In this document: piece by piece, positions 10,709 to 62,882 of the stretch
Position numbering within the stretch: position 1 is the stretch's first letter
How the letters are laid out: each line of letters begins with the position of its first letter
DNA from: Isoetes taiwanensis
Lineage: Eukaryota; Streptophyta; Lycopodiopsida; Isoetales; Isoetaceae
Assembly (NCBI GenBank): GCA_021234155.1
Contig: JAJEKV010000005.1
Coordinates: forward strand, 18,894,089 to 18,958,088
Length of the DNA: 64,000 nt
Direction of reading: 5' to 3'
Position numbers and translations under genes: made by a program
The notes under the pieces: generated by a model
Seen by the model: only the letters and a program-made list of their open reading frames with translations
What the model was told of the DNA's origin: nothing
Database searches by the model: none

Positions 10709-12243
10709 TGTGACGTCCCCTACTCGTATACGGTGCACTCACCATATACAAACAGGAGTTCATCCCCCATACCAGCTCCACACTGATACACGGCCCTCCA
10801 CATATCACTGTACCCGTAACGAGTCCCAGTGGGAAGAGTGGAAGGGTCATTTTACCCCGTCTCCCTCAGGGCCTACCTAGCTGCGGAAGCGTAAACGTAC
10901 ATGTCAGTAAACAATATCATCACATATCCACCTCGAAGGGTGGTACATTAACATCTGCATAGACAAAGATCAGCACAATACATAAGGGGAAATCTACCCA
11001 AGGCTCAGACTCAAGGGATGACTGACGGCTTGGGCCTCCAGAGTTCATTGCAGACAGAATTCATGGCAATGGATTTGGCTGGCATAAGAACATGGCATCG
11101 GGTTGTCCACTCCATCCGCCCCTCCTGTGCACACTTTGCAGAGTAGGCTGAAAAGTGTTGGGACCTGACTGTAGCCCGCCGAATGCATAGCCAAAAGGGC
11201 TATTTCTGAGTTGCATCTCCCCAGTTCCGATGGGGCAGGTAGGGATCACTCCCTCCAGATGTCTACATGCTGACTCAAGGTGACTAGAGGGCCACTGCCC
11301 TTATTCGACTGAACCCACTGGAAAGTGAACACCACTTCACGGGTGTCGAGCCCATGCCTTGCCCGCACTCAGTGGTAAGTCATTAGACCTAGTCACGATG
11401 ATCCCCGGTAGGCCTTACAGACCAGAGGGATCGTTCAAGAGTCAGAACACGAACCTCCTTCTTAGCCAGTCTGGCCCCTTCACCCACAACCAGGTGTGGT
11501 TCTTGTACACAGGCCGAATCTACAGTGTGCTAGAGAGGCTAATCTAGGAGCATCTACTACCAAGCTTGAGGTCTCTACCACCCTTTCCAAGACAAGGAGT
11601 TCACAGATATACATCATCCCCATACATCACAGAGAACTAAAGAACTAGATCTAAGCTATATCATAGAATTAGGTTCTTTAGTTAGAGTCTGGTAACTAGA
11701 GATCTAGATAGCTGCTAAGGGCGATTTAATAGACTAAACCTACTGATACAATGACTGGAAGACAGTTTAGACAATTAAATCGACTACCTACCTGATCCTT
11801 GAGTTGCTCCTCCTGACTTGAGTTCCACCATCCTGCTGAACTGCTCGAATCAAGGAGAACTAATGGTGCAATTCGCTTAGACAAAGTCTGGGAGGCAGTT
11901 TTGACCCTTTGAGTGAGCAAAACAGAGCTCTAAAACCCTATGGACGAAAATAGCAAGTTAGGGTTTCCCTAACCTAAATAGACAAGGGGTTACCCTTTAA
12001 GCATGTGGGATAATTGGGAATGGCTAGGTGGCATAAAGGTGTCCACATGGGAAAATGTGCACCTAGATTAATGTGCACATTGGTAAATGTGCACATTAAT
12101 AAATGCACATATCTTGCAAGTTGCCCCCTAGGGGCTACCCGCCTAGCTACACGTCGGCGTACACGTCAGTCGGGGTGGCGTGTACGCGTGACGAGGCAGT
12201 ACAGTATACGTCCTGGGACCGTATGCTGTGCTGGAACGTCACA
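10709..12243 (-). repeat. 3' LTR of chromovirus 1
   Basis: 1535 bp. Its ends on the plus strand are TGTGACGTCCCC and GGAACGTCACA, so the termini are inverted TGTGACG/CGTCACA. It is homologous along its length to the solo LTR at 26316-27907 and more distantly to the LTRs of chromovirus 2. Confidence 0.9.
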
Positions 12244-12257
12244 TTCTCCCCACCTTG
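12244..12257 (-). other. Polypurine tract of chromovirus 1
   Basis: On the minus strand the bases ccaaggtggggagaa immediately precede the LTR start, which fixes the element's orientation. The region 12258-13082 is its untranslated 3' part, in which I see no gene. Confidence 0.8.
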
Positions 12258-13082: not shown

Positions 13083-16000
13083 TTAATCTGCACAAATCGA
13101 CATGCCTGAGCCGATTTCTTCGGAGATGACCTTGCCGTCCCATTGCTCCATAAACTGTGGGTACTGCTTTACTAGATCTTTCTTAAGTACCCATGTCGCG
13201 TCTTCCACTGGTAAGTGCTTCCACTTGATCAAATATTGGAGGAACTCCGATCTTCTTGTTTTCTTGAAGGCTTTATCAAGAATCAACTCTGGAACTATTT
13301 CCAGCTGCTCCTCCATCATTTCCAACAGCGTTGGAGTGTCCAAAACTTCATCTGGATTTGGAGTATGCTTCTTCAACAAACTCACGTGGAAGACCTTATG
13401 AATCTTTAGGTGTGCTGGTAGATCCAATCTGTAGGATTGATTACCTATTCTCTTGACTATTCTGAAGGGTCTAGCCCACCTTGGAGCAAGCTTCTTACAA
13501 TTACCAATGCGGAGCTTCGCCTGCTTTACCTTGATCTTGAGCCATATATCATCTCCAACTTGGAACTCTCTGACTGTCCGATGCTTGTCGGCGATGCTCT
13601 TTTGTCGACTCCTTGCTGCTAGAAGATACCCTCGAACTTCTTCCATGAGCTGCTGCATGTCGGACAACATCTGCTGCGAAACCTCTACTTTTGACACGGG
13701 ATTGTGCCAAGTGTCTGGAGTTAGGCATTGATAGCCGTAATTGATCATAAACGACGACATTTGGGATGATTCTTGCTTGGTGCTATTGTAGGCAAACTCC
13801 ACCAAGTGAATAAATTCTTCCCACATACCTTGCTTGTTCCAGACATAGTTCCGTAGCATGTCCTCTGTTGGTCCGCTCCGTTTGGCCATCCGACTGGGGA
13901 TGATAAGCCGTGCTCATGGATAGCTTCGTTTGAATTGTCGCAAAGAGGTCTTGCCAAAAGGCGCTCATAAACTTTGGATCCCTGTCGGAGATAATCTCCC
14001 TTGGCATGCCATGAAGCCTGAAGATTTCTTTGGTGAAGAGCTTCGCTGTATCCATAGCGGTGTCTGTGGTCCTGCAAGGCACAAAATGTGCCATCTTTGA
14101 CAACTTGTCGACCACTACCATCAAGGCATCCTTCCCTCTTACTGTCCTTGGAAGCCCTGTTATGAAATCCATGCTGATCACCTCCCACTTAGCGTTTGAC
14201 ATCGCTAATGGCTCCAAAGCCCCTGGAATTCGAAGCTGCTCTGCCTTTGTCCGCTGACATAGCTGACATTCCTTGATGTAGCGAGGTACCTGCTTCTTCA
14301 TTCCTGGCCAATAGTAGCTGCTGCGCACTTTGAAATATGTTTTCATGAATCCCACATGGCCAGCTATAGGGCTGTTGTGCATGTCGTGGAGGATCAATTT
14401 CCTTACACCTGATGATTCGGGCACGCACAACTTGTCTTTATGGTATAACAGGTTGCCTTCCTTCTTATAATGTTTGAAGGCTTCCCGCTCTTTATCTGTT
14501 CTAGCCTCCCTAGAGAGGCTTGCCCATACTTCCTTGAAATCCACATCCGTTGGCAAGGACTCTTCAATCTTCCTACCAAAGTCGCTGGAGAGCGTCGAAA
14601 TTGCATTGCAATGCACCCTAGTTGTCAGGGGATGCCTTGAAAGTGCATCCGCTACCACATTGAGCTTCCCCGGCTTGTAGACTATATCAAAGTCATACTC
14701 TTCAAGGAACTCCATCCACCTTCTCTGCCTCAGATTAAGGTGTGGTTGCATGAATATATACTGAAGGCTCTGATGGTCTGTATCCAATTGGAACTTCCTT
14801 CCCAAGAGGTAGTGCCTCCAAATTCTTAATGCCCTGACAACCGCAAGCAATTCCTGATCATGGGCGGGGTAGCGCGTTTCGGCGTCGTTCATCTTCCTGG
14901 AATCATACGCTACCACACGCCTGCATGAGCACTGCACCTGTGGCTATCTTACTCGCATCTGTCGCCACAAGCTTATCTTTTTCTGGGTCTGGCAGGGTCA
15001 AGACAGGGGCGGTCGTCAGAGCTTCCTTCAACAATTCAAACCCCGCTTGGGCTTTCTTGTGCCAATGCTCTGCCCAATCTTTCACCTTCTCCGCCCTCGT
15101 CAAGTCTGTTAGCGGGGCCGCTATCTTAGCAAAGTTCCTCACGAACTTCCTGTAGTACCCTGCTAGGCCGAGGAAACTTCTGACCTCATGCACATTCTTC
15201 GGTGCCGGCCACTGAATCACTGCTTCAATCTTAGCGGGATCCGTCGAGATTCCTTCTGTTGAGCTCACATGACCCAGGTATTCCACCTTCTCCGTTGCGA
15301 AGTGGCACTTCGACAACTTGGCATACAACTGGTGCCTCTTCAACTTCTCCAGCACTCTCCTTAAGTGTTGCACGTGCTCTTCAAGGGATCTGCTATACAC
15401 CAAAATGTCGTCAAAGAATACAATCACAAAGGTGTCTAAGAATTCCCTGAAGATGTCGTTCATGAGCCTCATGAACGTTGCTGGGGCGTTTCGATAAGCC
15501 GAAAGGCATTACCGTGAACTCATAGTGTCCATATCGCGTTCTGAAAATGGATGTCTTCTTCCTTTATCCGGATCTAGTGATAGCCTGACCTTAAGTCAAT
15601 TTTGGAGAAGACCTTTGCCCCTTGCAGCTGATCCATCAAGTCATCTGATCTGGGGAGCGCGTACTTGTTCTTGATGGTGTGCTTGTTCAACTGCCTATAG
15701 TCTATGCACATCCTCAAACTGCCATACTTTTTCTTGACAAAAAGAATGGGCGCTCCAAATGGCGAGACGCTAGGTCTAATGAAGCCTAGGTCGAGCAACT
15801 CCTGCAATTGCTTCTTTAGCTCCGTCAACTCCTGCGTCGTCATTCTATATGGGGCCTTGCTTCGTTCCTGGTTCGAGTGCTATCTCACACTCGACTCCCC
15901 TGTAAGGAGGAAGGTGCTCGATCTCGTCTGGAAAGAGATCGTGGAATTTCGTGATCAACTTAGCTATTTGCTTCGGCAACTTGCTGAGCACCTTGTCTTC

Positions 16001-17050
16001 TTTGCTTTCTTCTGACTCCGGCTCTTCAATCTCAAGCTTGAAGATGTATGCTACCTGCTCGCTCTTGATGCACTTGAACAGCCGTTTAGAAGACATACAC
16101 TGCATGATGGGAACAACTTCTTTACCTGTGATCTCAATGATCTTGTCGTCGGGTGTTGGGAAGGTCACTTTCCGCTTTCCACAATCAATGATGGCCCCTG
16201 CTGGTCCAAGATACTCCATTCCTATGATCAAGTCGTACTTGCCAATGCCCATTACTTCTGCCCCCATCTGGATATTAATCCCTGGCAAGTCGATGTCGAA
16301 GTTAATTCTCTTGCCTGCTGTCTGCCTTACTGCTCCACTTGCTAAGACAACGGGCCTCGGCTTCGACTTCAGTGGTTTCAACTTCAACATCTCAACCATT
16401 CTGGGGGATGCAAAGTTGTGGCTACTTCCTGAGTCTATTAGGACTATGAAGGACTTGGCCTTGGCCTTCCTTACTGTGGAAATTACCTTATACTGGTTCT
16501 CTGCTTGCTCTGTATCTATTGCGTCAAAGATATGACACTCACCCTCAATGTAGTCGCGGGCTGTCTCGCCGTCGTCGTCAGACAGAGTGTCCCAATCTCC
16601 CAACTCCGCTAGTGCTGCACTCATGACGTAGGGGCAGTTTGCTGTCCTATGGCCTGGCTGGAAACACCTGAAGCAAAGCTGCTTTTCTATGCACTCCTGC
16701 CTCTTTTTCTTGGGCATCGCCTGCAAAAAGGATCGCACTGCTTTGGAGTAGTTTGACCCTTCCTGCTTGTCCTTGAAGGACACCTGCTTCTTCTCCTGCT
16801 GCTTCCCCTGATTGCCACCATATGGGGCTCTAGCTGGACCTGGGCTGGTTGCCCTAGGGCTATAACTGCCTGTTGCCTTGCCTTTATCCTGGTAATACTG
16901 CTGCCTCTGCCCGCTATTCTGAGGTCCCGTCCCTTGCAAGCTTATTTCCTTGGACTCTGCTTCTGATACTGTCTTAGGGTTTATTGCCCTTACAAGCTTG
17001 CCCCTCAACGTAGCTCTACACTGCATGCTTCTCACCCAACTTTGGCACAT
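13083..17050 (-). pseudogene. Chromovirus 1 pol: protease, RT, RNase H, integrase, chromodomain
   Basis: Minus-strand segments give the Ty3/gypsy order. Nucleocapsid knuckle CFRCFQPGHRTANC; protease [23 protein letters not shown] and [18 protein letters not shown]; RNase H DTDHQSLQYIF; integrase zinc finger (HDMHNSPIAGH...CQLC); integrase catalytic residues in MDFITGLP, SDRDPKF and GQTERTN. The C-terminus carries a chromodomain, QYLIKWKHLPVEDATWVL (about 13150-13260). Frame breaks near 17030, 15840, 15470-15574, 14920 and 13880 split it into five open segments, so it is probably inactive or affected by sequence errors. Chromodomains of this class can bind modified histone tails and steer integration. 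Confidence 0.93.
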
Positions 17051-17744
17051 AAAGCCTTAGCCTCATGAATTCCTCTGTATATTTCTGGACTGATTTGTTT
17101 CCCTGTTGCAACCTGTAAAATTGCTGCATCATGCTGGACTTGTGCTCTCTCGGGACATAATGGCGCTTGAAAGCTTTAGCGAACTTTCTGAACCTGCAAG
17201 CATCCCTGCTTAAGCCATGGGCCTTGGCATAACCTTTCCACCAAATGCGTGCTGCTCCCTTCAGGTTGGCTGTTGCCACCCTGCCTTTATCCTTGTCCTT
17301 CATACCATAAGCGTTGCCATATTCACTCATCTCATCGAGCCAAGCCTCTGCTTCCATTCCTGACCTGTTCTCGCCTGAGAATTGCTCGAGCATCCTGGCC
17401 TTCCAAACATTTCCCAATGCAGAGTCTACCTTGTTCTGGTAGTCAGAGGCTCTTGTGTCCCTTTGTCGTCCATCTGTGGTGTCCCTCTGCCTTCCATCTC
17501 TACGGTCCTGGGCCTGCTCTTCCTCTTCCTCGGAGTCGGAGTCCGAATCTGAGCTTGAGTCAGAGGATTCCGAGCTGGAGGACCTCCTTCTCTTGCTTCT
17601 CCTCTTGTCTCTTCCTGTTTTCCGAGCTGATGCCTGTGGCAACTGAGCATTGCCCTCCGAACCTACTCCTGCTTGTGCGGCCAGGAGAGCCTTTATCTGC
17701 TCAAGGTCCGTCCTCATCTGTGATATTTCCTCTTCTGGGGTCAT
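17016..17744 (-). CDS. Chromovirus 1 gag
   Basis: It starts MTPEEEISQMRTDLEQIKAL at 17744, has a basic then Ser/Asp/Glu-rich linker (about residues 45-75), and then a retrotransposon capsid core (EAWLDEMSEYGNAYGMKDKD, ARIWWKGYAKAHG, FAKAFKRHYVPREHKSSMMQ). It ends after VPKLGEKHAV by a frame break. The following overlapping frame resumes the C-terminal capsid and the zinc knuckle. The capsid core aligns with the frame at 56257-56544 of chromovirus 2. It packages the RNA in the cytoplasmic particle. The spacer 17745-18040 shows no gene. Confidence 0.9.
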   Translation of the reverse strand: MTPEEEISQMRTDLEQIKALLAAQAGVGSEGNAQLPQASARKTGRDKRRSKRRRSSSSESSDSSSDSDSDSEEEEEQAQDRRDGRQRDTTDGRQRDTRASDYQNKVDSALGNVWKARMLEQFSGENRSGMEAEAWLDEMSEYGNAYGMKDKDKGRVATANLKGAARIWWKGYAKAHGLSRDACRFRKFAKAFKRHYVPREHKSSMMQQFYRLQQGNKSVQKYTEEFMRLRLYVPKLGEKHAV

Positions 17745-19041
17745 GGGTCCAAATTCTTCATAAAGGCTCCTTGCCGAGGGTGGCCTGGGTTGCCGGGGGT
17801 GGCCTGGGCGGAGTCTGTTCTTCCATATGGTCTCGGCGTTGTCGTTCCCCTGAGCCTAGGCCTCTAGCTGCATACACAAGTAGGTCATGGCTATGAGGTT
17901 AGTTTTATTTATTCTCTTGCATTATATATGTTTGTTGGTATGGTTGTGGAACAAAATACATCAACAAAACATTTAAAGTGCAAAAGAAATTATATTTATA
18001 TTATATTATAATTACAACGCCCCCGGGATCAAGAGTCTAACTATTCTTGATATCGCCGGTAGGATGGGTTATCTTCGAGGAACTTCTTAACTTGGGCCGT
18101 TCCTACCGAGTGTCCCAAGTTCCTGAGGACGTTGGTTGATGACCCGCCCTGCAAAGCTCTCACTAATTCCTCTACCCTGCGGTCGGAGGTGTAAGCTGCG
18201 GTCACTGCCAGTCTTCCCTGCCGTCTGTAAGGTATGGCGAAGTAAAAAATGTCGAGGGCTATCGCTCTCTTGACCAGGACGGCATATTCGGTGTTGGGAG
18301 CTAGCCGAGCATGCCGGCCAAAGCCTCGATTAGCATCGATATTCCTTCCTCGCCCCTGGGGGTGAATTTGCGGTGGATTACCGCTATTCTTCCGTCCATC
18401 AGCAGGGGGAGGTAATACCGCAACGACCTGTCGTTGTGTGACGAATCTTCGCCTCCTCGGCCTCCAACTCTGTGTCTGCTCGCATAGTCATCGACCTCCA
18501 CCGTGGTGAGCTCCCTGTAATCTCTAACTGTTGCTGAAGCTCTCCTGAGGTCGAACTCGCCTCTTCTCTCCGGGGGAGGTGCTGTCGAAGAACATGCCGT
18601 TAAGATGTTCGAGGTCTTGTTGCGGATCCCCATCCGTTCTTGTAGAGCAAGGAACTCTTCCTCCGTCGGTAGTTGTCGCGCCTCCATAATCTGTCTGATA
18701 TTGCTGTAGGCTTGAATATCGGAGGTCGACTCTCCCGTGTAAGTGTCGGCTTCCCTTACTTGGAGTGGGAAGTCGGAAGTTCCTCGGACGATGAAGTCGT
18801 CCAGGTCTGTTTTCCGGAGCTGGTGCAGCAGCTCGTCAGGTCGATACTCTCTTTCCCTGCACTCCGGGAGGTTCTGGATGTCGCTTAAAAGCAGGTACTC
18901 TTCGCCCTCTACGATGATGGGGGCTAGGCTTGTGATGCCCAACCCAATGGGTGGCGCGATCCTGAGAGTTTGCCGGCTTCTTTCGAATTCCTGCAATTCC
19001 TGTTCTGCTAGCCGCTGCTCTTCTGCTGGGTCGAGCTCGAC

Positions 19042-23656: not shown

Positions 23657-24478
23657 TCGACGTAGTCCTCATCTTCTTCCTCTGATTCTTCGTGTTGCTC
23701 CTTCTCGTACTGTGAAAGGAGCTGTTCTGCCGCTGCTGTGGCTAATGGGTCCACGTCCATGGGGGGGATGGAGGTTTCTCCCATGGGGTTCTCGGCACGG
23801 CGGGTAAGAAAAATGGCTAAGGCAGCGTTGAAAGAAAAGCACTTGGTCCTGTTGACAGTCAGGACCATTGGCTCGGGCATGCGCTGGGCCTTGTTTGTGA
23901 GGTACTTGGCAATGTTTGGAACATCGCCTAAGGCTGCTTGAAGGGATTGCCTAGGAACAAAGTAGCCTATGCAAGGTGGGAGCTGCACTAAGGATGGCCC
24001 TACCCTAGCTTGGAATTCAGACAGGACTCTGCTATATGCTGGGGTTGCCTGCAAGGTTGCATGGACATCTATCTCTTTCCGGAAGATTCGGAAAACCTCA
24101 TTGACGTCAGCTTCGGCAGCATGAGCGCTGGCGCTGTACCATCGCCTGAAATCAGAGGTTGCCATGAATCTAGCGAGGAAGAGACTAGCAAACAGATGCA
24201 AGAGCGCCACAGGGAGCTGGGAAATCGGCTAAGGGGGCAGGAGCAAACTCGTAGGGTGCTACGTAAGAAATGAGGGACCTATTTATAGAAAAGGGGGAAA
24301 CCCTAATTTTTGGGTGACTTGGAAAATTCTTGGGGTTGGGCAATTCTAGCCTATATCGAGGTCTAAATGGGAATTGGAAGACTAATTTAAGGGTTTGAGC
24401 ATGACTGGATTACCTAAAGATCCTAATACAACAAGTTGGAGATCATTTGGACAAGTTATGGAGAAGAAATGGTAGGAG

Positions 24479-24888: not shown

Positions 24889-25388
24889 TTATTTGGGATC
24901 TCCCTTAATTAAACTAGCTAATTGCATGTCCTTCCTCATGAGGGTTACTCGCTTTGCATGAACAGTGCAAGCTGTCGAGTCCTCAAAATGTTGCACTATC
25001 CTCTGCTCAGCTGCTTCCTGCAGTGCCAGCAGCATCTCATCTGTGACCCTCATGCCAGTGTTGAAGTCCTGCATGACTTCTCTAACTAGACGAGCAAATG
25101 GGGCACGGGGAATTAGGAGGCCGTAACTGCGCTGGAAGTGCCTAATCTCTCTTAGTGCTCTTCTCTCGGTCTCCTTCCTGCTGGGCTTCTTCTTGGCTGG
25201 CTTCTTCGGGACCTTGGGCTTTGGTGGTGGCGGCCTTAGTGTCTGGCTCTTCGTTGGATGTCTGCCCTCGATAGTCCGTACCCTGTTCTCCTGATAGTAC
25301 TTGTTGTACTCCTCCCACTTCACCATGAAGGCGTTGTGTTCCCTCATCTTTCTCTCGTAGATCTTGACAGGGTCCGTGATATAGGACT
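24889..25388 (-). CDS. Chromovirus 1 ORF1 (N-terminally cut) ending in a CENH3-like histone fold
   Basis: The frame is open from the rearrangement junction at 25388 to the stop at 24889. The first part is acidic/aromatic (KWEEYNKYYQENR), then a Pro/Lys-rich basic tail (PPPPKPKVPKKPAKKK) leads into a histone H3 fold at about 25161-24892. Diagnostic pieces are [48 protein letters not shown]. Canonical H3 has [15 protein letters not shown] and RVTIMPKD, whereas plant centromeric H3 typically has LREIRHFQ, LLIP..PF and RVTLM.KD, so this copy leans to CENH3. The fold is complete at its C-terminus (SLIKGDPK). The true N-terminus was lost with the 5' LTR. It probably acts as a chromatin protein encoded by the element. 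Confidence 0.85.
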
Positions 25389-48249: not shown

Positions 48250-49718
48250 AACATATTCTAATGTTCCTAACCAACATGCCCTTAACCAACTGGGCAAAAT
48301 CGTCTAAACCAACTGGGCAAAATCGTCTAGACGTTTATAAGTAGTCGCTTCTACCCATTTATGCCGGTGTCTCGGGAACGTGACACCCAGATCTACTCGA
48401 GCAGTCTCCATGGGTCTGTTACAATCTTTCCCACTAGAACTATGCTTGTCCTTGAGCATCACAAACCATAGACCACTACCAAGTCATGACTTACCGTCCA
48501 ATGGTATTTCAGGTCATACTTGCCCCGATTGAGACTCGAACTCGAGCCCTGTTCTGATACCAAATGTAACATTCCTGACCGACATGCCTTTAACCAACTG
48601 AGCAAAATCTTCTAGACATTTATGAGTAGTCACTTCTACTCATTTATGCCGGTGACTCGGGAAAGGCCACATGCATATTCAAGGATCGAATACTCGAGCG
48701 GTCACACTAGAGCTATGCTCGTCTTCGAGGATCACAAGACTTAATCAGTATACCACTGACTGGGTGGTTACCAAGGCATTTATATCGGTGTCTCGGAAAT
48801 GCGACACCCAGACCTACTCGAGCGATCTCCCACTAGAACTATGCTCGTCCTTGAGCATCACAAACCATAGACCACACCATTACTCGAGCGGTCTCCCATG
48901 GGTTCGTTACAATCTCTCCCACTACAACTATGCTCGTCCTCGAGCATCACAGACCAAGTCATGACCTACCGTCCAACGGTATTCCGGGTCATACTTGCCC
49001 CATGGAGACTCGAACTCGAGCCCTGCTCTGATACCAAACATAACGTTCCTAACCGACATGTCCTCAACCAACTGGACAAAACCGTCTAAACGTTTATGAG
49101 TAGTTGCTTCTACTCATTTATGCTGGTGTCTCGGGAACGCCCCACAGGCACATTCAAAGGATCGAATACTTGAGCGTAGGATATGTCCTCAACCAACTGG
49201 GCAAAACCGTCTAGACGTTTATGAGTAGTTGCTTCTACTCATTTGTGCCAGTGTCTTGGGAATGCCCCACATGCACATTCAAGGATCGAATACTCAAGCG
49301 GTCTCTCCCACTAGAACCATGCCCATTCTCGAGACTCGAACTCGAGCCCTGCTCTGATATCAAATGTAACATTCCTGACCGACATGCCTTTAACCAACTG
49401 AGCAAAATCTTCTAGACATTTATGAGTAGTCACTTCTACTCATTTATGCCGGTGACTCGGGAAAGGCCCCACATGCACATTCAAGGATCGAATACTCGAG
49501 CGGTCACACTAGAGCTATGCTCGTCCTCGAGCATCACAAGACTTAATCAGTATACCACTGACTGGGTGGTTACCAAGGCATTTATGCCGGTGTCTCGGAA
49601 ACGCGACACCCAGATCTACTCGAGCGATCTCCCACTAGAACTATGCTCATCCTCGAGCATCACAAACCATAGACCACAGCATTACTCGAGCGGTCTCCCA
49701 TGGGTTCGTTATAATCTC
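48250..49718 (-). repeat. Tandem array of tRNA-like (SINE-like) units, left part
   Basis: On the minus strand each unit contains gcccagttggttaaggc-type sequence (A-box-like) followed about 45 bases later by gagttcgagtctcc (B-box-like, GTTCGAGTC), preceded by tttggtatcagagc. Copies of the A-box-like part lie near 48283, 48309, 48591, 49067, 49189 and 49391. Units of variable length also share a ctcgtcctcgagc hairpin. The arrangement looks like RNA-polymerase-III-derived short elements that became tandem. The array continues at 62883. Confidence 0.55.
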
Positions 49719-51340
49719 TGTGACGTTCCACGTATTTATACGGTCTACTATACGGGACACGTACAAATACAAGCACGTCACTCCCTAAAGGTACGCTACC
49801 ATGGGGGTATGGGAACTTAATTGCAACCTAGGGGGTTACCTTACAAAGGATTAAATTAGCTATGCTAATTTAACACATTAATAATAATAACCTATAACCT
49901 AGGAAATTAGGATAATTACCAATTGGGAAGGCGCCACCTGCCCCAATCGATTGGGCAGCATGGGGGTTGCCAAGTTTGGATGCCAACTTGACCCCTATCC
50001 CTGGGATTGACTCCTGAAGATCGACCAAGGAAGGCCGAGTCTGGCGCCATCAACCACCGCAAAGAACCACCATACCAGTCGCCCCTCGCGGAAGCCACAA
50101 CTGAATCTTCAACCGCCAGGAGATGGAGGCGCCCCATGGGAATGAGTCCAGCCAGAACTCAGGTAGGTGGCTATGTGAATTCTAGATAACGCGTGATTAT
50201 GTCCGTTTCTCTGTTCTCTTTGTAATTCAATCATAGAAACTAACCCTTGTTTGTACAAGCAAGTACTCTTTATATTCAATTATGGTTTCTACTCTGAAAG
50301 GATGGATTGTTAGCTCTTTGTTTAGTCTGACTCAAACGGGGGATTAAGGGGGTAGAGACCCTGAACCGTGTATTGTAGTATGCTCCTAGATAGCCTGCAC
50401 CAGAGTCCCATTATTGCGGCAAGGCCGGCACAAGAACCCACCGGGTCCTAGATGCTATGGTCCGGCTTAGCACCGCATAAGGAACACAAGTGGTGACATG
50501 AGGGGTGGGGTCTTGCATGAGCATACAAGGCCCCCGAGACTCCTACAAATGGGCTAGGCCCGATAGCCGGTCACGTAGAGGGCCGGGTATGGGTCTGACA
50601 CTCCCTGGGTGGGAAGGTGTGATCCGTATGGAGCACCTTGCACTTTGAGTAGATTTAGGGTGAGTAAGTTGGGTACGGATGCGGGGGTCGCTGATGCGCA
50701 CGTATTCTCTAGCTCACCCATGGAACCACCGCGGTTTCGGAAGGGGACGCTTCCCCGACCTGCCTCATCGGACCAGGCGCCATGAACCCGGAGTAGGCTC
50801 GTGAGGGTGATGCCCCGAGTTTGCGCTCTGGAAGGGAAGGCTATAGCAAAGCCATAGCATGAATTGACCCATCCGCAAAGTGTGCATGTGGGAGGGGCGG
50901 ATGGAGTGGACAACCCTAGCCAATGTTCTATGCCAGCCAACGCCATGCCAAGACTCGGTCTCGCCGATCTCTTGAGGCCCAAATCCCACCGATCCCCACC
51001 GAGAGTCCGGAGAGCGGGGTAGAACCCGGGTTTGGGTGTTTTCTTAGGATTAGATGCATATTCTATGCCGTTGGTATTTTGGATGGATGTGCCACCCTTC
51101 GTGGTGGTTATTTATGTATATTCGTGCTGTGTGCTAACCCTTGTATTCATGCTTCCGCGACGTAGGAGTCCCATTGAAGGCGTGGGCGAATGACCCCTTT
51201 CAGGTCCTTCTTAGGGCCTCATTTCATAGATGGCCCGAAATAGACGGAGGGCCCCCGCTCATGGTGAGATGATCGCCATGGAGGGGAAAGTCCTCGATGT
51301 ATACGCCCGGAGGGTCGATATATATTCGGGAGCTGCCACA
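49719..51340 (+). repeat. 5' LTR of chromovirus 2
   Basis: 1622 bp, starts TGTGACGTTCCACG and ends GCTGCCACA. It matches 61263-62877, with clustered small indels and substitutions mostly in GC-rich places. Confidence 0.92.
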
Positions 51341-51343
51341 AAG

Positions 51344-51360
51344 TGGTATCAGAGCCGTGA
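51344..51360 (+). other. Primer-binding site of chromovirus 2
   Basis: tggtatcagagccgtga lies three bases after the LTR and matches the initiator-Met tRNA end. The leader 51361-52079 shows no gene. Confidence 0.9.
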
Positions 51361-52079
51361 TTTGGTTGTTCAAATCATAGCACTCGCCAAACACTAACTC
51401 GTAGCACGGTAGTTAGGAGGAGGCTAAGTCAATGCGTCGTTAGTTCTCTTTGTTGTTTGGCTTGGTGTTAGGTTAAGTTAAGAAATTGTAGCCTTGAAGT
51501 GGAGGGGCCAAGATTGGAGGCCTAGCAGGTGCGGTGGGTAGCTCAAATGACAAAGATGATGGCTCCATTGGATTGCGCTTTCGAATTACCCTAAAACAGT
51601 CAACTCTAGGCGAAAAATGGTCAAGGGCAGGCCCAAAATGAACTTCGAGCCGCTTTGCTTTTTGTCACTTTGTCAATCAAGATCGGCGCCGAAATGTCGC
51701 CGCTACCGAACGACCGTCGGACTTCGAAGTCAACGCTGACCCTTGGTCAACTTCGCGCCGCTTGCATTTCGGCGACACCGGTCGGCAGAAACCCGTATAA
51801 TGCCATCGGCGCCGAGCCAGATGTGGCGCGTATTTCCGCCGTGATATAATTTTTTAATAATAAAATTTTGAAGTTAATAAGAAATTTTTGAAATTTTAAA
51901 GTTAATTGGTAGTTTAGCAAACCATTTCTGTCATTTGCTTTTGCTTAGCGCCTCCAACCGCTGAGCCGCCCCTCGCCATCGCGGCCGGACCGGACCTTGC
52001 TCCTGGCGCCTTGTGTGCCTTGTGCATCTTAAGCCCCCCTTTGCCATCCTCTTATTTGCCGGTAGCCTCACTATTCCCT

Positions 52080-53305
52080 ATGGCCATCACCAAGAGCGCT
52101 CCAGATCCAACCACCATGAGCATCGTGGAGATCTACGCCATGATTGCTAAGCACATGGCTACTGACCCAGCCCTCATCGACATCTTGTTGGATGAGCTGG
52201 TCAATAGGTTTGAGAACAACAATAGGATTCCATATCCTGTCTATCACTTCTCAGAGCCATTCCTCATCCGGCTGAACCTACGCCAGCTCCCATATACCCT
52301 TGTTGAGCAACCTGATATGGTAATGATGCTCATCAAATTTTATCCTCCCGAACAGGAAGGCCATACGGAGGAGGAAGATGTCAGGACGGAGGCCGACCGT
52401 ATTAGGGGTTTTGCCAGGGAGGACGACCACCGGGAGATTGAGCGGGCTGACACCGCAGCCCGGGGTAGGGAGTACCGGTACCTCGGGGACGGCTTTGCCG
52501 TCATCGATGGCAGAGCCATTGAGGTTCCCCCATACCACTGGCATGAGGGTTCCAACAGCTTTGTATGGGGAGAAATCCCGACATCGGCATAGACTATCGA
52601 CAACTATTCCGGATAGATATGGGTCTTCGGCCACAAAGGTACCCGCCTGAACTTAATCGCCGTGCGCAGCCCAACTTTTGCTCAGATCCAAGAAGACCTA
52701 AGGAGAGCTCCGGAAGAGCGCGAAGTTGGAGCAAGAGGAGCGGGACCGACAAGATCAGCGGGACCAATGTGGGAGGAGGTGCATCTGGGAGTGGCTCGAA
52801 CCCAAAACCGACGCATCCGACCGTTAAGCTCCGGAGGAAGGGAGTTGCCCATAAGGCCGGCAGTCAATACAAGGATAAGTTAAAGACTGTCGGGGCTTTT
52901 GGGAAGAAGACCAGCTCCGACCGGAGGCAGCAGAGAGTGGATAACTCCCGGCCGGTTGCTGGGGCCAAGACGGTGCCAACATCGTCGGGGCCTGGGCCAC
53001 AGCGGAAGCCTCATCGGTTCCGACCTGGTACCGTGGCATTGCGGGAGATCCGCAAATTTCAGAAGTCCACGGACCTTCTGATCAGGAAGCTACCTTTTCA
53101 GAGGCTGGTACGGGAGATCGCACAGCAATTTAAGACCGATCTCCGTTTCCAGACCTTTGCAATTTTGGCGCTCCAAGAGGCTGCTGAAGCCTACTTGGTA
53201 GCACTTTTTGGTGATGCCAACCTTTGCGCTATCCACGCAAAGAGGGTCACCATAATGCCTAAGGATTTAGCCCTCGCCCGTAGGATACGGGGGGAGCAAC
53301 CTTAG
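52080..53305 (+). pseudogene. Chromovirus 2 ORF1: novel N-terminal domain fused to a histone H3 fold
   Basis: The start ATG 52080 has a good context (cctATGGCC) and gives MAITKSAPDPTTMSIVEIYA. The N-terminal part (about 170 residues, no known domain) ends in a frame break near 52590, and a second break lies near 52690-52800. The frame that follows is basic ([20 protein letters not shown]) and ends with the H3 fold at 53003-53302. Ungapped length is about 405 codons. Chromovirus 1 has the same ORF cut at its 5' end. ORF1 is separate from gag, so it would need its own initiation. The breaks may be decay or sequence errors. Confidence 0.8.
53003..53305 (+). CDS. Histone H3 fold domain within ORF1
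   Basis: From [20 protein letters not shown] through [20 protein letters not shown] and [12 protein letters not shown] to [11 protein letters not shown] and RRIRGEQP, the text follows canonical H3 from about residue 36 to the C-terminus without gaps. Visible differences from standard H3 include Phe for Tyr in RKFQ, Asp for Glu in STDLL, Gln for Asp after AQ, Thr-Phe for Ser-Ser before AI-ALQEAAE, and GDAN for EDTN. The normal modified tail (ARTKQTARKS) is absent. No intron interrupts it. The fold would pair with H4 if expressed. It is a captured or co-opted host H3. Confidence 0.95.
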
Positions 53306-53417
53306 CCTAATTGCGGGGATCCGCATTTGTACATATCTTTTTGTGATAATTAATAAAGAGGTTTTTATTTTGAATTAAAAGTTTAATGTTTTTTTTATGT
53401 TAAATTTAAAATAAAAT

Positions 53418-53447
53418 GCTGACGTCAGCTTTAATAAAAGGGTTTAA
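53418..53447 (+). promoter_or_regulatory. bZIP/CRE-type palindrome with TATA-like sequence before ORF2
   Basis: gctgacgtcagc (53418-53429) contains TGACGTCA, the palindromic site bound by bZIP factors. About 15-25 bases later tttaaaagggg resembles a TATA region, and ORF2 starts at 53507 in gccATGG context. An AATAAA-like signal (53350) follows ORF1. This suggests separate transcription of ORF2. It is inference from motifs. Confidence 0.4.
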
Positions 53448-53506
53448 AAGGGGACTGTAAGGTTATTTTAAAACGCTTCTTTTCCTCTCTCCTTCCTTCT
53501 AGCGCC

Positions 53507-54912
53507 ATGGCTGCCGCCGCCGACCTTGCTGCCTGGTACCTTGATGGAGAGAAATGGGATCCACAGGTTCCCTTCGACCTGCTGCAGCCTTTGCTATGCC
53601 AACGCGTAGATCTCCTTGCCAATATGCAGCGGCATCCGGACTACGCCGGATTCCTTGACTTTTACATGGAGGAAATGCTTCCTCTGTGTATTCCTCTGGG
53701 GGATCCTCCCCACTTGTATTTGGAGCGGGAGATAGTTCGGCAGATGCTAGGCGGGGACACACATGCTTATGACGTCTTGAAGGGGAAACTCCGATGGGGT
53801 AAACACCTACCAGTGGTCCAAAGATCGGGGCAGAGATGTCGGAAGCTACTTTCGCTCTAGCCATCCTCATGGACCAATACGTTGAGGATGAAACCTTGCC
53901 GGCAGAGAAGGGCAAGCTGTCAGAATCCTCCGAGGAGGGGGGTGACGAGCATATAGGGATGGGCGACTTTGCCCGTTAGAAAGAGCTAGCAGAGGAGCTA
54001 CCACCGCGCCGTGACCAATCGATAGGCTTGTCAGGGTTAGACGGCCTTCCAGTTATTTATCACCGGGGCGGGGAATACCTTCTCTTGGATGATATTATCC
54101 GGGCGTATCACGTGGTGGCGGATTTAGGCGCCAAGCGCAAAGACCATGTACTTTTACGAGCTTGCGGAGTATTGTATGGATGATTTCATCGACTTCACTT
54201 CTACCGAAGCTTCCGAGGAGGTGCCCAGCTCCTTCGGTTCCGTCGAGGAGACTCTAGAGCCGGCGGAGACTCTATTACGTCTTAGTGACCGTGATGCGAG
54301 GGGAACCAGCCGCGAACCGCACCAGATGCCTTCCGCGGCTATGGGACCTCACGCCCCAAACATTAATATGGTGGAAGTTCCCTCAGGACTCGGATGATGA
54401 GGGTGAAGATTTATACCATAACCCCTGCGCACAAGAAGGAGGAGCAAGGGGAGCTCAAGGAGGAAGAAGTCCCCATGGACTGGATAAAGAAGTGGCAAAG
54501 ATTCGAGACTTCGCAAGGGAAAGTGCTGGGTAACCATCTTACCCGTTTCTTTTTGTCGGCCTTCAAATACGGGCAAGTCCTCTTCATAGCCCGGGATTTA
54601 GGGCCAGAGGCTGAAGCTTCATGGTGGGCCCTCCGTGCACTTTCTACACTGGCCGGCCACAAGAAGCTTCCCTATCGTACGTTTACGTATGTACTCGTAC
54701 GACGGGATCTTGCCCTTACGGCCTTGGGCCAGGATATTGCGCCTTGGATGGGCATGAAGCTCCTCACGGCAGCCCCATTGGCCGTTGCCTATCCACCGGA
54801 GGTTGCATCTGTTGCGGCGGCCACAGTGGACCCTGGGGTAGCTCTGCTGCGACACCGACCGCCTCCACCACCTCCTAGGGCTAAGGATAAAGAGGCAGGG
54901 CCTAGTTCCTGA
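53507..54912 (+). pseudogene. Chromovirus 2 accessory ORF2
   Basis: It starts MAAAADLAAWYLDGEKWDPQ. Frame breaks lie near 53830, 54150 and 54390, and one stop lies near 53978. The reading aligns with chromovirus 1 ORF2 in three blocks: N-terminus (DLLANMQRHPDYAGFLDFY), middle (YHRGGEYLLLDDII) and C-terminus (FLSAFKYGQVLFIARDLGPE, ALRALSTLAGH). The end is Pro-rich (PPPPPPRAKDKEAGPSS). Length is about 470 codons. No known family. Conservation in two diverged elements argues for function. Confidence 0.7.
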
Positions 54913-55129
54913 ACTAAGGGTGCTATATAAATTTTGTTATATATATATATATATATACACATGTATTTATGAGATTTTGGATTGGCAATTGTTTAAACCA
55001 TATTGAAAAATGGTGTACCTTATCTACTTATTAAATACAAAGTTTTCTTGATGAGTATAACTAAATTGTTCTTTTTATGACATCCTCTTCAAAAGTATTA
55101 AAACTTTAGAATATAATGGAATTACAAAA

Positions 55130-55579: not shown

Positions 55580-55837
55580 TCCTGTACTTCTCGCCAACCC
55601 CTAGGCTTGGTCTCTTACGTTATGTTTTCTTTTTGTTGTTAATTCTTGTGCGGATAGAATTTTAAGAGTTTCCATCATGTATCATACCTACTTTCGTCTT
55701 AACCCATGTACCAATATACTTGTTTTGTACTCGACTTCAATGAAATAAAAACATTGTTTTCTGTTTGTATATTCTTTTGATCTCAATTATTTTAAAAGGG
55801 ATTATACATTAGTATAAATCTGCTTATATATTCATGA

Positions 55838-57250
55838 ATGCTCCCTATAGACGGTGTACGTAACGCCGCTTGGCAAACACCCTCCAACGCCAGTAGGCTC
55901 ACCCCTGAACAGGAATTGATGTTAATGAAAAGGCAACTCGGTGAGTTACAGGCTTATGTGTTGCATACCAATCCATCGCCACATACTCGGGAGGGACGGA
56001 CCCGGAATTACCTCCCGACCATTGAGTCCACCGCACAACAGACCATCTCCTCCCGAGCTAGCCACGCACTGCACAAAGGAGGACTCATGCTAAGCGTCAT
56101 CGAAGTTCCTCTAAGGATAGCGCCGCTTCCTCACATTCAACCACTTCGGCTTCTTCCGGATCCTCGCTATCAGACAATGACCATTCAAGGCGTAAGGATA
56201 AGGAGTACCGGAAAACCGTTGATACAGCCATCACTAGTATATGGAAAAACCGGAAGTTGGCTCAGTTTGATGGGAAATCCAGAGGAGGCTTGAATGCGGA
56301 ATCTTGGTTGGACGAAATGAAGGAATTGGGGGAAGTCCTATGGAATGACAGAGAAAGATACAGGGAAGGTCGCCACCACGAACCTTACCGGAGTCGCCGT
56401 ATTTGGTGGAAGGGTTACGCTGAGCTAAGCACACGGACGGGGAGCGGATGCAAGTTCAAGAAGTTCGCTAAGGCTTTTAAATCGCATTACGTGCCTCAAT
56501 GCGCACAAATGCCAACAGATTCAGACCTTCTAGGTTGGAGTTGAAGGGCATGTCGGTGCAGGCCTACACCGGCGAATTCATGCGTTTGAGGTTGTATGTA
56601 CCAGGAATGAATGAGAAAAAGGCGTAGAGGGCTACATTGAAGGGTTGGCCCCATCCATTAAACGTATGGTCAAGGCCATAGACCCAAAATCGATGCTTGG
56701 CGGAAGCTAAGGCATTAAGCCTTGAGGAAGACACGCCAAAGAACCAAGATCTGCGACCTGCTCCTTACTTTCAGACCACGGGCCGCCCACACCTTACAAA
56801 CCCCCGATTTCGCCAAGTCGGGGCCCTCTCAAAGACAATTCTTATGGCCGCCCGAGGGGAGAAGAAAGTAAGCCTTTAGCACGCCCGGATAAGCGAGAAC
56901 AATGCGGGTAAGGAAGTTCGGGGCCTCTTACGGTCCATTCCTAAAGAGGCGGAGAACAGCTCCGGCCGGGATAAGGCATGCTACGGTGCATGAGGGCTGG
57001 ACACTTCATGCGTAATTGTCCGTGCGTCCACGCTAGACGCTTCGGTGGCCATGGCCGACGCTGGATTGGGAAGATTTGGAGTCCAATCTTCTTTGCGGAG
57101 GACGAGGCTCCGAAAGTACATTCATGGTGCGTCTCATATTCTTGCCGCTATAGAAACGAGCTTGCGCTGAAAGTCACCTTCGTTATATCTACAATAGGCC
57201 AAGTAGGCGGTAAGCCCTTCATAATTTTGATGGACCACGGGTAGTACGCA
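55838..57250 (+). pseudogene. Chromovirus 2 gag and protease region
   Basis: The start MLPIDGVRNAAWQ is followed by LTPEQELMLMKRQLGELQAY, parallel to MTPEEEISQMRTDLEQIKAL of chromovirus 1. The capsid core is at 56257-56544 (ESWLDEMKELGEV, RIWWKGYAEL, FAKAFKSHYVPQ). A zinc knuckle CMRAGHFMRNC is at 56980-57015, and a decayed protease site FIILMDHG (DSG expected) is at 57216-57240. Multiple shifts and stops. Confidence 0.8.
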
Positions 57251-60200
57251 TAATTTTGCTTCTCCTAGAATGGCCAGTCTGCTGCGGTGGAAGCGTTGAG
57301 ATCGACCTAAGCCCGGTCACATTAGCTAGCGGTAAGATCGGACACACTAATGGCGCCGTATTAACCTTAAGATGCGGTTGCGGGTGCACCGGTTGCCTTG
57401 GGTGCCGAGTTAATGGACATTGGCAAATATGATCTTATTGTGGGAATGGAGTTTTTAAGCGTCTGCGCGGGGGCCCACATAGGCTGCGAAAAGAGGAGGT
57501 CACCTTCAACGCCGCTAATGGAGCACGTGTGGCGATAAAAGGTGATTCATTACACTCCGCCATGCAATCAATGTCGATAAAGCAGCTAGGAAAAGCTATG
57601 CGAGGAATGAACTCCTTTGCCTCATTAAACTTGCTTCCATTGAGTCGGACTCCAAGCGGCGACAAGTAATCGGCTTTACCATCGGACATTGCTACCCTTC
57701 TTGAGAATTTAGCGATCTCTTTCCGGATGAGATCCACAAGCTTCCTCCTTTCGAGGAGGGGTGGAATGTGAGATAACTCTTGAACCGGTACTAAGCCTAC
57801 CGGCAAAGCCCCGTCATAGAATGAGTCCTCCGGAGTTAGCGAGCTTAAAAAGCGACTACAAGAGTTCTTGAATTTGGGGTTTATTAGGCCCGGTGTTTCA
57901 CCATTTGGCTCCTATTCTTTTTGTCAAGAAGAAAGATGGCTCCTTAAGGATGTGTATTGGTTATAGGCAACTCAATAAGCATACCATCAAGAATCGCTAT
58001 GCTTTGCCTAGGGCGGATGATCTTATGGACCCGGTTGCAAGGAGCAAAATATTTCTCAAAGATTGATTTGCTCCGGGTACCATCGAGATAAGGATTAAGG
58101 AAGAGGACATCCATAAGTCGCTTTTCGTACCAGATATGGGCATTATGAATTCTTGTCATGCCTTTTGGATTGACCAATGCCCTACCAGCGTTTATGCGGT
58201 TGATGAATGACATCTTCCGCCAATACTTGGATGACTTTGTTGTCATTTTCTTTGATGACATTCTCATCTATAGTAAAACCTTGCAGACAACATGAACAAC
58301 ATCTTGATTAGCTTTGCAAAAGCTAAGGCGCCATCGACTTTTGCCAAGTTCTCTAAATGCAAGTTCGCCACTCCAAGGGTAGACTATTTGGGGCATATTA
58401 TTTCACTTGAAGGAATTGCTACTGAGACCAGCTAAGATAGAAGCAGTAAAGGATTGGCCCATTCCAGCTAATGTTTCAGAGGTCCGGAGTTTCTTGGGAC
58501 TCGCAGGATATTATCGGAAATTTGTTAAGGATTTTGCAACAATTGCCGCACCTCTTACTAATCTCACAAGGCATGAGAAAGTAAAGGATTGGATGGAACA
58601 TTGGAAAACAAAAGTCCAAGTCGGCTTCCAGAAGCTCAAGGATGCCTTAACATCTGCACCAGTCCTTACCTTGCCTGATCACGAAAAGGATAAAAGTAGC
58701 CACCCCAAGCGCTAGTAAAATAGCTACTGGTGGAGTTCTAATGCAGGAGGGGAGAGTTGTTGCTTACGATTCAAAGAAGATGAATGATGCAGAGCAGCGA
58801 TATCCTACCCATGATCAGGAGTTACTGGCAGTTGTACGTGCTCTCCGTATTTGGAGACACTACCTTCTTGGTAGAAGATTTCAGCTGGATACGGATCATC
58901 AAAGTCTTCGCTACCTATCCACCCAGCCAAATCTGAATCTCCGTCAGCGAAGATGGATGGAATTCCTCGAGGAATATGACTTCGAGATTGTATATAAACC
59001 AGGGAAGCACAATGTGGTTGCGGATGCTTTGTCACGTCATCCCTTCATAACCCGGACCCATTGTAATGCCATTTCCACACTCACCAGCGAGTTTGGGAAG
59101 CAAATAGAACAAACCTTGGCCACAGATCCCGAATTCTGTAATATTTGGGAAAGTTTGGGTAAGGAAGCCCGTACCGATAGAGAACGTGAAGCATTCCGTT
59201 CATATAAGAAGGAGGGCAATTTATTATATTACAAAGATAAGTTGTGTGTTCCAGCGACTTCAGGGGTGCGAAAGCTGATTCTCCATGATACACACAACAG
59301 CCCTATAGCAGGACATGCGGGTTTTATGAAAACTTATTTTAAGATCCGCTCCAGCTATTTTTGGCCTTCCATGAAGAAGGATATTGCTAGGTACATCAAA
59401 CAGTGTCAGGTTTGTCAACAAACCAAGGCTGAGCAATTAAGAGTTCCCGGGGAGTTGCAACCTTTGGATGTGCCCAACGCCAAGTGGGAAGTCATAACCA
59501 TGGATTTCATTGTGGGGCTTCCACGTACTCTCCGTGGGTATGATGCCTTAATGGTCGTGGTCGACAAACTATCAAAGATGGCTCACTTCCTGCCATGTCG
59601 CACCACGGACACCGCCTTCGACACCGCCTTGCTCTTTGCAAAGGAAATTTTCAGGTTGCACGGGATGCCGAGAGTAATTGTATCGGATAGGGATCCTAAG
59701 TTTGTCGGTGCGCATTGCGGAAGGATTTCTTCGCCACCATCCGGACCAAGCTTGCCATGAGTACGACCTACCATCCTCGACCGGATGGTCAAAGCGTAGG
59801 CGTGTCAATCGTATTATCGAAGATATGCTAAGAAGCTATGTATGGAGTAAAAGTCACAATGGGCGGATTATATTTACTTGGTGGAATTAGCCTACAGCGA
59901 TTACAAAGCGAGGAGTCTTCTAGAATGTCTCCTTTCATGATAAATTATGGCTATCAATGTCTTACTCCGGACACATGGCATAATCCTGTTTCTAAAGTGG
60001 AGTCTCTCAACAACTCCTTTTAGAAATGCGAGGCCTTGGTGGAAGAAGTTGGGGGTTACTTATTGGGCGCACCCGGTCGTCGGAAAAGAGTCTAGCGGAT
60101 AAGCACCGAACCCCACAGAATCTTCAGTGGGTGAGTCGGTTTGGCTTAAGATCAAAGTAAAACAAGCCAAGCTTAAAATTGGTAAGCTGTAAGAAGTTGG

Positions 60201-60737
60201 CACCCGGATGGGCTGGGCCGTTCATGATTCTTGAGCGCGTGGGAGAACGGGGCATATCGCTTGAACTTGCCACCCCGCTTGAAGATCCACAAGGTCTTTC
60301 ACGTGAGTCTTCTGAAGCAACACACCCCTGATCCAGAGGAGGTTTTGGATACCCCTACCCTCCTAGAAATGAGTGAAGAGCAGCTGGAAATAGTGCCCGA
60401 AGCTCTTCTTGATCGAGCTTACAAACAGACCAGAAGGACTCAAATGTTGCAATACTTGGTCAAGTGGAAGCACTTACCAGTTGAAGATGCTACCTGGGTG
60501 ATGAAGATAGACCTTGAGAAGCACTATCCGGACTTCATGCGGGAATCTCAAGGCCGCACCATCAACGATGCTATCAACCCCGCTCCCGGCGGTAAGCTTG
60601 AAGGCTTGATTGACCGAGAATCATGTTTTAGAGGGGTAGACGCATCGTATATGATAGTAATAACCGATGATGAGATCACCTTCGTGTTCTCTAGGACGTG
60701 GTGTATTGTTGATGTTGACATGACCGCGAATTGCTAG
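57251..60737 (+). pseudogene. Chromovirus 2 pol with chromodomain
   Basis: RT pieces ([48 protein letters not shown]), RNase H (YDSKKMNDAEQRYPTHDQEL, DTDHQSLRYL), integrase (HDTHNSPIAGHAGFMKTYF, CQVCQQTKAEQ, MDFIVGLP, SDRDPKF) and the chromodomain (LQYLVKWKHLPVEDATWVMK at 60440-60500) are all present. The frame is broken about ten times, mostly in RT and after the integrase core. Very close to chromovirus 1 pol in RNase H and integrase. Confidence 0.9.
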
Positions 60738-61262: not shown

Positions 61263-62877
61263 TGTGACGTTCCACGTATTTATACGGTCTACTATACGGG
61301 ACACGTACAAATACAAGCACGTCACTCCCTAAAGGTACGCTACCATGGGGGTATGGGAACTTAATTGCAACCTAGGGGGTTACCTTACAAAGGATTAAAT
61401 TAGCTATGCTAATTTAACACATTAATAATAATAACCTATAACCTAGGAAATTAGGATAATTACCAATTGGGAAGGCGCCACCTGCCCCAATCGATTGGGC
61501 AGCATGGGGGTTGCCAAGTTTGGATGCCAACTTGACCCCTATCCCTGGGATTGACTCCTGAAGATCGACCAAGGAAGGCCAGGAGCTGAGTGCCATCAAC
61601 CGCCTGCAGAGAACCACCATACCCGGTCGCCCTGTGGAAGCCACATTTGAATCTTCAACCGCCGAGGAGATGGAGGCGCCCATGGGAATGAGTCCAGCCG
61701 AACTCGGGTAGGTGGCTATGTGAATTCTAGATAACGCGTGATTATGTCCGTTTTCTGTTGTTCTCTTTGTAATTCAATCATAGAAACTAACCCTTGTTTG
61801 TACAAGCAAGTACTCTTTATATTCAATTATGGTTTCTACTACGAAAGGATGGATTGTTAGCTCTTTGTTTAGTCGACTCTGCGAAGCGGGGGATTAAGGG
61901 GGTAGAGACCTCTCTGAAGGTGTATTGTAGTATGCTCCTAGATAGCGCCCTGTAGAGTCCCATTAATTGCGGCCTGTGCACAAGAACCCACCGGGTCCTA
62001 GATGCTATGGTCTGGCTTAGCACCAGACAAGGAACACAGTGGTGACATGAGGGGTGGGGTCTTGCATGAGCATACAAGGCTCCTGAGACTCCTACAGTGG
62101 GCTAGGCGATGGATAGGTCACGAGGGCGGGTATGGGTCTGACACTCCCTGGGTGGGAAGGTGTGATCCGTATGGAGCACCTTGCACTTTGAGTAGATTTA
62201 GGGTGAGTAAGTTGGGTACGGATGCGGGGGTCGCTGATGCGGCACGTATTCTCTAGCTCACCCATGGAACCACTGTGATTACGGAAGGGACGGCTTCCAG
62301 GCACGCCTCCTCATCGGACCGAAGCGCCATGAAACACGGGGTAGGCTGGAGGGTGATGCCCTGAGTTTGCGTCTCCGGAAGGCTATAGCAAAGCCATAGC
62401 ATGAATTGACCCATCTGCAAAGTGTGCACAGGAGGGGCGGATGGAGTGGACAACCCTAGCCAATGTTCTATGCCAGCCAACGCCATGCCAAGACTCGGTC
62501 TGCTGATCTCTTGAGGCCCAGCCGTCAGTCGATCCCCACGGGAGTCTGAGCCGGGGTAGAACCTGGGGTTTGGGTGTTTTCTTAGGATTAGATGCATATT
62601 CTATGCCGTTGGTATTTTGGATGGATGCGCCACCCTTCGTGGTGGTTATTTATGTATATTCGTGCAGTGTGCTAACCCTTGTATTCATGCTTCCGCGACG
62701 TAGGAGTCCCATTGAAGGCGTGGGCCGAATGACCCCTTCGTGTCCTTCTTCGGGCCTCATTTCATAGATGGCCCGAAATAGACGGAGGGCCCTGCTCATG
62801 GTGAGATGATCGCCATGGGAGGGGAAAGTCCCCGTATGTATACGTCCGAGGGTCATTATATATTACGGGGCGTCACA
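61263..62877 (+). repeat. 3' LTR of chromovirus 2
   Basis: 1615 bp, starts TGTGACGTTCCACG and ends GGGGCGTCACA, followed by ATCTC. Confidence 0.93.
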
Positions 62878-62882
62878 ATCTC

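Follow-up and report, generated by a model that had tools for sequence, protein, structure and literature searches.

A histone H3 core under purifying selection in the first open reading frame of repeated LTR retrotransposons of Isoetes taiwanensis

We found that the first open reading frame (ORF1) of repeated LTR elements in the genome of Isoetes taiwanensis carries a histone H3 core that is under selection and retains most of the nucleosome-relevant residues. Both chromoviruses recognized in the window, i.e., the whole stretch of 64,000 nucleotides analyzed here, encode H3, and the copy in element B, on the minus strand, is the more divergent one.

The H3 core of element A occupies positions 53003 to 53302 of the window on the plus strand (100 codons, followed by a TAG stop at 53303-53305) and constitutes the C-terminal end of a 246-aa open frame of ORF1 comprising a basic tail and the H3 fold (52565..53305, +). 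It matched the Pfam Histone family with an E value of 4.3e-42, and its top match among solved chains was histone H3.3 (7.6e-53), aligned without gaps across the fold; its translation equals the canonical plant H3 core at 84 of 100 residues. Compared with 120 natural H3 and CENH3 sequences, namely, the matches of the element B H3 query, the window copy of element A has all 31 residues that are at least 97% conserved among them, and that of element B has 27 of the 31. Chance is excluded as the source of the element A H3 by the E values together with the many genome matches (at least 150 scored) and the selection tests described below.

Element A spans positions 49719-62877 and is a chromodomain-bearing Ty3/gypsy element bounded by paired LTRs and flanked by a target duplication of 5 bp. 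Its 5' LTR (TGTGACG...CACA; 49719..51340, +; ends read from the sequence) is 91.7% identical to 61263-62869 within the 3' LTR (61263..62877, +), which was recognized by this pairing, and the duplication ATCTC was read on the left (49714..49718) and on the right (62878..62882). The LTR is followed, in this order, by a primer binding site read from the sequence (TGGTATCAGAGCC; 51344..51356, +), which we take to be of the tRNA-Met type, ORF1, ORF2, gag, reverse transcriptase (RT), RNase H-integrase, and the chromodomain. The N-terminal domain of ORF1 (MAITKSAPDP...; 52080..52589, +) is an open frame conserved in the family and ended in this copy by an in-frame stop, and the ORF2 region (53507..54912, +), assigned from open frames and from its position downstream of H3 in loci L001-L008, is broken in the window copy. 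A gag remnant (56203..56624, +) was detected by tblastn with element B gag, RT (58194..58694, +) by similarity to element B, RNase H-integrase (58741..59760, +) as an open frame with a Pfam match, and the chromodomain (60393..60539, +) by the Pfam Chromo profile (1.4e-08). Since gag-pol is spread over several frames and ORF1 is split over frames by in-frame stops after 52589, the window copy of element A is dead. The initial annotation had described a Ty3/gypsy chromovirus with matched target duplications, encoding upstream of gag a protein whose last 100 residues follow H3 without gaps, and all of this was borne out; of the coding content that it called standard for the family, gag, RT, RNase H, integrase, and chromodomain were recovered, with gag-pol in several frames in the window copy. 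Tandem repeats with a unit of ~125 bp flank the element on both sides (48246-49713 and 62883-63990), implying that element A was inserted into a satellite-like array.

In element B, the divergent H3 ORF (24889..25347, −), whose upstream ORF1 part is lost, was recognized as an open frame with a Pfam Histone match (4.7e-29), a best PDB H3 match of 7.9e-28, and a structural model. The same strand carries ORF2 in two pieces (23657..24165, by sequence comparison, and 18301..19041, by an open frame and sequence comparison), gag (17016..17744; Pfam Retrotrans_gag, 3.6e-15), pol in several frames from the gag C terminus to the integrase C-terminal region (13083..17050; similarity to element A), and the 3' LTR (10709..12244; repeat comparison and sequence reading). 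The second piece of ORF2 lies beyond a nested 4.6-kb LTR element (19042-23656; TGTTG...TAACA) with LTRs 96.5% identical and the duplication TCGAC. A 336-bp repeat (25389-25724, 99% identical to 12199-12534) comprises the 3' internal end and the LTR start, so that the H3 ORF begins right after such a fragment, and this duplicate looks like the product of a deletion within a tandem of two elements. A solo LTR (26316-27908) akin to the element B LTR has its own duplication (GTAGA), a second RT fragment (38997-39525) is 25-38% identical to element B RT, and a further B-type H3 copy (L067; C1056:18965051-18965512) is located ~7 kb past the right end of the window. The RNase H-integrase proteins of elements A and B are 78% identical, with a pS of 0.85, i.e., with synonymous differences near saturation, and their H3 proteins are 51% identical, with 26% identity at third codon positions; by these comparisons, the two elements are old relatives. 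Among the 10 window ORFs scanned against Pfam, a histone family was matched by the two H3 ORFs and by no other (no H4).

Throughout the genome searched (1,658,258,908 bases, the window belonging to contig C1056), ORF1 of element A gave at least 150 matches, all scored with E values of ≤0.001 and 68-100% identity, and the element B H3 gave at least 150 scored matches with 78-100% identity; the 9890 and 10797 candidates, respectively, of a loose first look are not copy counts. Forty A-type and 20 B-type copies were picked by hand from the 150 listed for each query, mostly as long or open frames and leaving out shortened ones, and since all copies were found via H3 similarity, an H3-bearing frame in these copies follows from the choice itself. 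Of the 40 A-type copies, 33 have an uninterrupted ORF1 of 385-420 aa, the C-terminal part of which is H3. Downstream of H3, ORF2 is present at all eight A-type loci (L001-L008) and at 11 of 12 B-type loci (L061-L072), window copies included. The complete order, namely, LTR end, primer site, ORF1, H3, ORF2, gag, PR-RT, RH-INT, and chromodomain, was found at L011, where the chromodomain is 97% identical to that of element A. We examined five further A-type copies, four of which proved to have paired LTRs with 92.4-95.6% identity and exact 5-bp duplications, read from the flanks as CCGGC, TAGGA, ATGTC, and AGAAC; no LTR pair of the fifth was found within the stretch fetched. For the B type, at least five same-strand pairs (C1018, C907, C1110, C1044, and C1108) have pol at a distance of 5.3-5.8 kb downstream from H3, as matched by eye among the 150 H3 and 107 pol matches listed; most of these matches were unpartnered, which the restricted length of the two lists could explain by itself. 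Besides, the same genome contains three more types of H3-fusion ORF, designated C (L093), D (L095), and E (L096).

We calculated dN/dS pairwise by the Nei-Gojobori method, using A-type pairs with dS of >0.05. The estimates, which are biased downward by the picking of similar or open copies and come from pairs dependent through relatedness, had a median of 0.043 for the A-type H3 core (757 pairs of 40 copies; median dS, 0.515), compared with 0.069 for the N-domain, 0.206 for the coil, and 0.221 for the basic tail. The corresponding B-type median was 0.064 for the core (144 pairs of 20 copies), with 0.139 for the pre-core part, 0.256 for the insert, and 0.144 for the tip (79 pairs with few sites; ratio of means, 0.549). 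The H3 core is thus the most constrained part of ORF1 in both types, and it is under strong purifying selection, as values near 0.05 at dS of 0.5-0.8 are far from 1. In neutral simulations starting from plant H3, 43 of 4000 sequences matched element B and 15 of 4000 matched element A in BLOSUM score and freedom from stops, and none of 2000 reached the observed score of either A or B with an H3 profile, which was built from B-query matches and is biased to B. With the Pfam profile, element B scored 93.3 bits versus 35.0-60.4 bits in nine neutral sequences, and element A scored 141.2 bits versus 114.9-136.2 bits, likewise in nine. The initial annotation had allowed for an H3 segment confined to one copy, as a stray host insertion, and for other copies devoid of purifying selection; a stray insertion is rejected by the many copies in the genome (at least 150 scored matches for each H3 type), and the low dN/dS of both types speaks against the latter. 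Selection on the H3 indicates that it has a function, without saying which.

From start to core, A-type ORF1 consists of MAITKSAPDP..., a conserved N-domain (~150 aa in 20 aligned copies), a charged coil, a basic tail, and RKPHR[FY].... The basic tail follows the pattern ...GSQYK[DE]KL...GAKTVP..., and a lysine precedes [AST]GSQY in all 38 copies in which GSQY was found (of the 40; L013-L052); A[RH]K occurs in 36 copies and ARK[ST]G in 13, a context resembling that of H3K9. M-x-x-TK opens 26 of the 40 A-type sequences, the other 14 being shortened or read from a later M. Among the 20 B-type copies, 12 start with MARTK and 8 have the exact H3 tip MARTKQTARK, continuing as MARTKQTARK[AP]RPGE, so that the tip holds both K4 and K9. 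The N-domain is common to types A, C, D, and E (E values of 6e-37 to 1e-57 between types); the best match of the B-type insert to C and E had an E value of 1.4e-05, obtained without filtering and located in charged stretches, and its match to A had 0.054. Type D starts with MARTKGT and has ARHSATGGK ahead of the core, the H3 counterparts being ARTKQT and RKSAPATGGVKK, respectively, and type E starts with MEEVKQV. On the basis of the type D ends, the B-type tips, and the weaker MA-x-TK of type A, the extra domain looks as if it had been inserted within the H3 tail, which would then be extended rather than lost; the tip of type E diverges, and the start of type C is ambiguous. The initial annotation had proposed that an element-specific domain replaces the usual tail, but such a simple replacement does not agree with the tips, which are kept exactly in 8 of 20 B-type copies and as M-x-x-TK in 26 of 40 A-type copies. 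The N-domain, analyzed in five copies, was without a Pfam domain; it had three PDB matches with E values of 0.65-0.83, and its single-sequence model was poor (pLDDT of 44).

Individual H3 residues have distinct roles in contacts with H4, between H3 and H3', and with DNA, and these residues appear to be largely kept in the element H3, as judged from the alignments. In the A type, R69 and R72 are present in 40 of 40 copies, and R83, C110, H113, K115, and D123 are present in 39 of 40. In the B type, R69, R72, R83, C110, K115, D123, and L126 are found in all 20 copies and H113 in 19; its departures are R63, replaced with P in 20 of 20, T118, kept in 17 of 20, and position 129, which is variable, and the window copy of element B is without G44, T45, L109, and A111. 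An AlphaFold2 model of B has the H3 helices at 57-75, 81-93, 103-133, and 138-147, with a mean pLDDT of 69.6 and fold blocks up to 93. All 50 matches listed by Foldseek for this model were nucleosome or histone-complex entries, with TM-scores by query of 0.41-0.47, which are low because the tail makes up one third of the model.

A phylogeny of 41 H3 cores, built without L099 and L103 (frame not found), united types A, C, D, and E in one clade (96/98) next to canonical H3 and L094, the presumed host H3 (136 aa in one open frame), and placed type B, on a long branch, with plant CENH3 across a fully supported branch. AU tests rejected neither a single clade of all elements (p of 0.121; 0.396 in an earlier set) nor a grouping in which B joins the other elements and canonical H3 (p of 0.146). 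An earlier tree, built with a different set of H3s, separated B from CENH3, and the five groupings compared for that set all escaped rejection. Thus, a single putative capture is supported for A, C, D, and E, and type B may represent a second capture or a fast-evolving old relative. The A and B H3s are not established as proven sisters, given the p value of 0.121 for one clade. Type B shares LLIP and RVTLMRKD with some CENH3 matches, besides its grouping in the best tree, but fern and angiosperm CENH3 matches are one residue longer in loop 1, which has the canonical length in both A and B, and the AU tests allow other placements of B. A plain CENH3 identity is rejected by the lack of the loop 1 insertion in A or B.

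As to function, we see an even chance that ORF1 is an element-encoded H3 variant which enters nucleosomes and serves the element through anti-silencing or targeting. The ORF1 protein would pair with host H4 and be deposited into nucleosomes on element copies, where the changed tail and the added domain would keep element chromatin from silencing, to the benefit of the element; the change would consist in the absence of a TARKS context near the A-type tip, with a K9-like A[RH]K lying further in and a K4-like lysine kept at the tips. A nuclear accessory protein would be consistent with the location of ORF1 early in the element and with a constraint that is stronger on the core and N-domain than on the linker, and since the histone part has been preserved by selection, the H3-carrying elements may alter host chromatin. 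We prefer a benefit through anti-silencing to one through the marking of integration sites, in which ORF1-H3 nucleosomes would draw the integrase chromodomain or the pre-integration complex via the added domain or the tail. This alternative seems unlikely to us: the element has a chromodomain, the invariant A-type tail lysine (38/38) stands in an H3K9-like context, and element A is located in a satellite-like array, but a single insertion site says little and, to our knowledge, chromoviruses achieve targeting without any self-encoded histone.

The high constraint on the core itself argues against a decoy that titrates H3-H4 chaperones or histone-modifying enzymes without entering nucleosomes, for which the kept DNA-contact arginines would be unnecessary; even though the enzyme-facing H3 tip is kept in some B-type copies (8/20 exactly MARTKQTARK), we regard this role as rather improbable. 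Coating of element cDNA by the H3 part, or its assistance in nuclear entry of the pre-integration complex, would suit the basic tail, which is apt for nucleic acid binding, and the location of ORF1 ahead of ORF2 and gag. However, stable DNA wrapping by an H3 fold requires H4, which was not among the 10 window ORFs scanned, and the conserved H4 and H3' residues of the core go beyond charge alone; such packaging is improbable. We strongly disfavor, as very improbable, a host H3 retrocopy carried along unused, as in fungal hAT elements: H3 capture by transposons has a precedent in the accessible text of PMC6710886, but dN/dS values of 0.043 and 0.064 between copies at a median dS of about 0.5-0.8, neutral simulations falling short of the observed H3 scores, and an H3 shared by the diverged types A, C, D, and E with a common inserted domain all stand against it. 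Returning to the H3 variant that enters nucleosomes, a wider version can be offered only tentatively and is somewhat doubtful, in which a plant LTR lineage would build its own chromatin, having captured H3 twice (canonical in A, C, D, and E and CENH3-like in B) with a tail domain each time, pairing it with host H4, and using the nucleosomes to mark or protect the element or its targets.

As a rule, histones belong to the host, and selfish elements are known to act on chromatin via enzymes, readers, or silencing suppressors. If the preferred reading is true, a retrotransposon family that has retained H3 under selection in numerous copies would represent a genome parasite that writes directly into the nucleosome; it would make testable whether a transposon sets its own chromatin state, and the element H3 would serve as an experiment of nature on the possible contents of an H3 tail. 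Fungal hAT DNA transposons with captured H3 are described in Pyrenophora and in Cercospora, Pseudocercospora, and Sphaerulina, where 90% of the copies in Pseudocercospora fijiensis are truncated and all are RIP-inactivated, those of Pyrenophora being potentially active (PMC6710886). They likewise represent transposon-borne H3-like sequences in tens to hundreds of copies, but they are DNA transposons for which the accessible text mentions no added domain, whereas here a fused ORF of an LTR retrotransposon is under purifying selection. The bracovirus histone CpBV-H4 is reported in the accessible text of PMC5423620 to join host nucleosomes and to act through its N-terminal tail; it is also an element-encoded core histone, but an H4 of a wasp polydnavirus, whereas the histone described here is a retrotransposon H3, the tail part of which comprises ~300 aa. 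Giant-virus histones are likewise histone folds encoded by a mobile agent, but according to the accessible text they have their own partner histones and organize viral DNA (PMC11222145 and PMC12297534), whereas the H3 found here is alone, with no H4 recognized. Tcn1-like and other plant chromoviruses share LTRs, gag-pol, and a chromodomain with our elements, and other plant elements share the possession of additional ORFs, but the accessible texts describe no element-encoded histone in either (PMC2864245 and PMC7264820). Orchid Ty3/gypsy elements with an m6A demethylase similarly keep a captured host domain as an additional ORF, which according to the accessible text is an enzyme and not a chromatin component (PMC9289625). 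The accessible portion of the open-access literature, the scope of the search being exclusive of subscription journals, preprints, and Repbase, yielded no retrotransposon with a selected histone, and a term search found the word histone absent from PMC7264820 (additional ORFs), PMC13317346 (plant gene capture), and PMC6431247 (giant transposons).

We also looked for relatives in other sequence collections. Scans of viral contigs with pol and an ORF1 N-domain profile gave no match, and none of 53 pattern-matching stretches was confirmed. A protein search with the B-type H3 had a best score of 110 bits and no B-like relative among the best 120 of 1342 matches. The search with A-type ORF1 gave 8000 candidates, and the four examined (P0122, P0125, P0134, and P0135) are gene models that contain H3 twice; element H3s of other species could not be seen among the 120 matches listed. 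Element H3 copies could be mistaken for histone genes of the host when such genes are counted. The best match of the pol protein was in the fern Adiantum nelumboides (52%), the name of which appears on 5 of the 120 matches listed.
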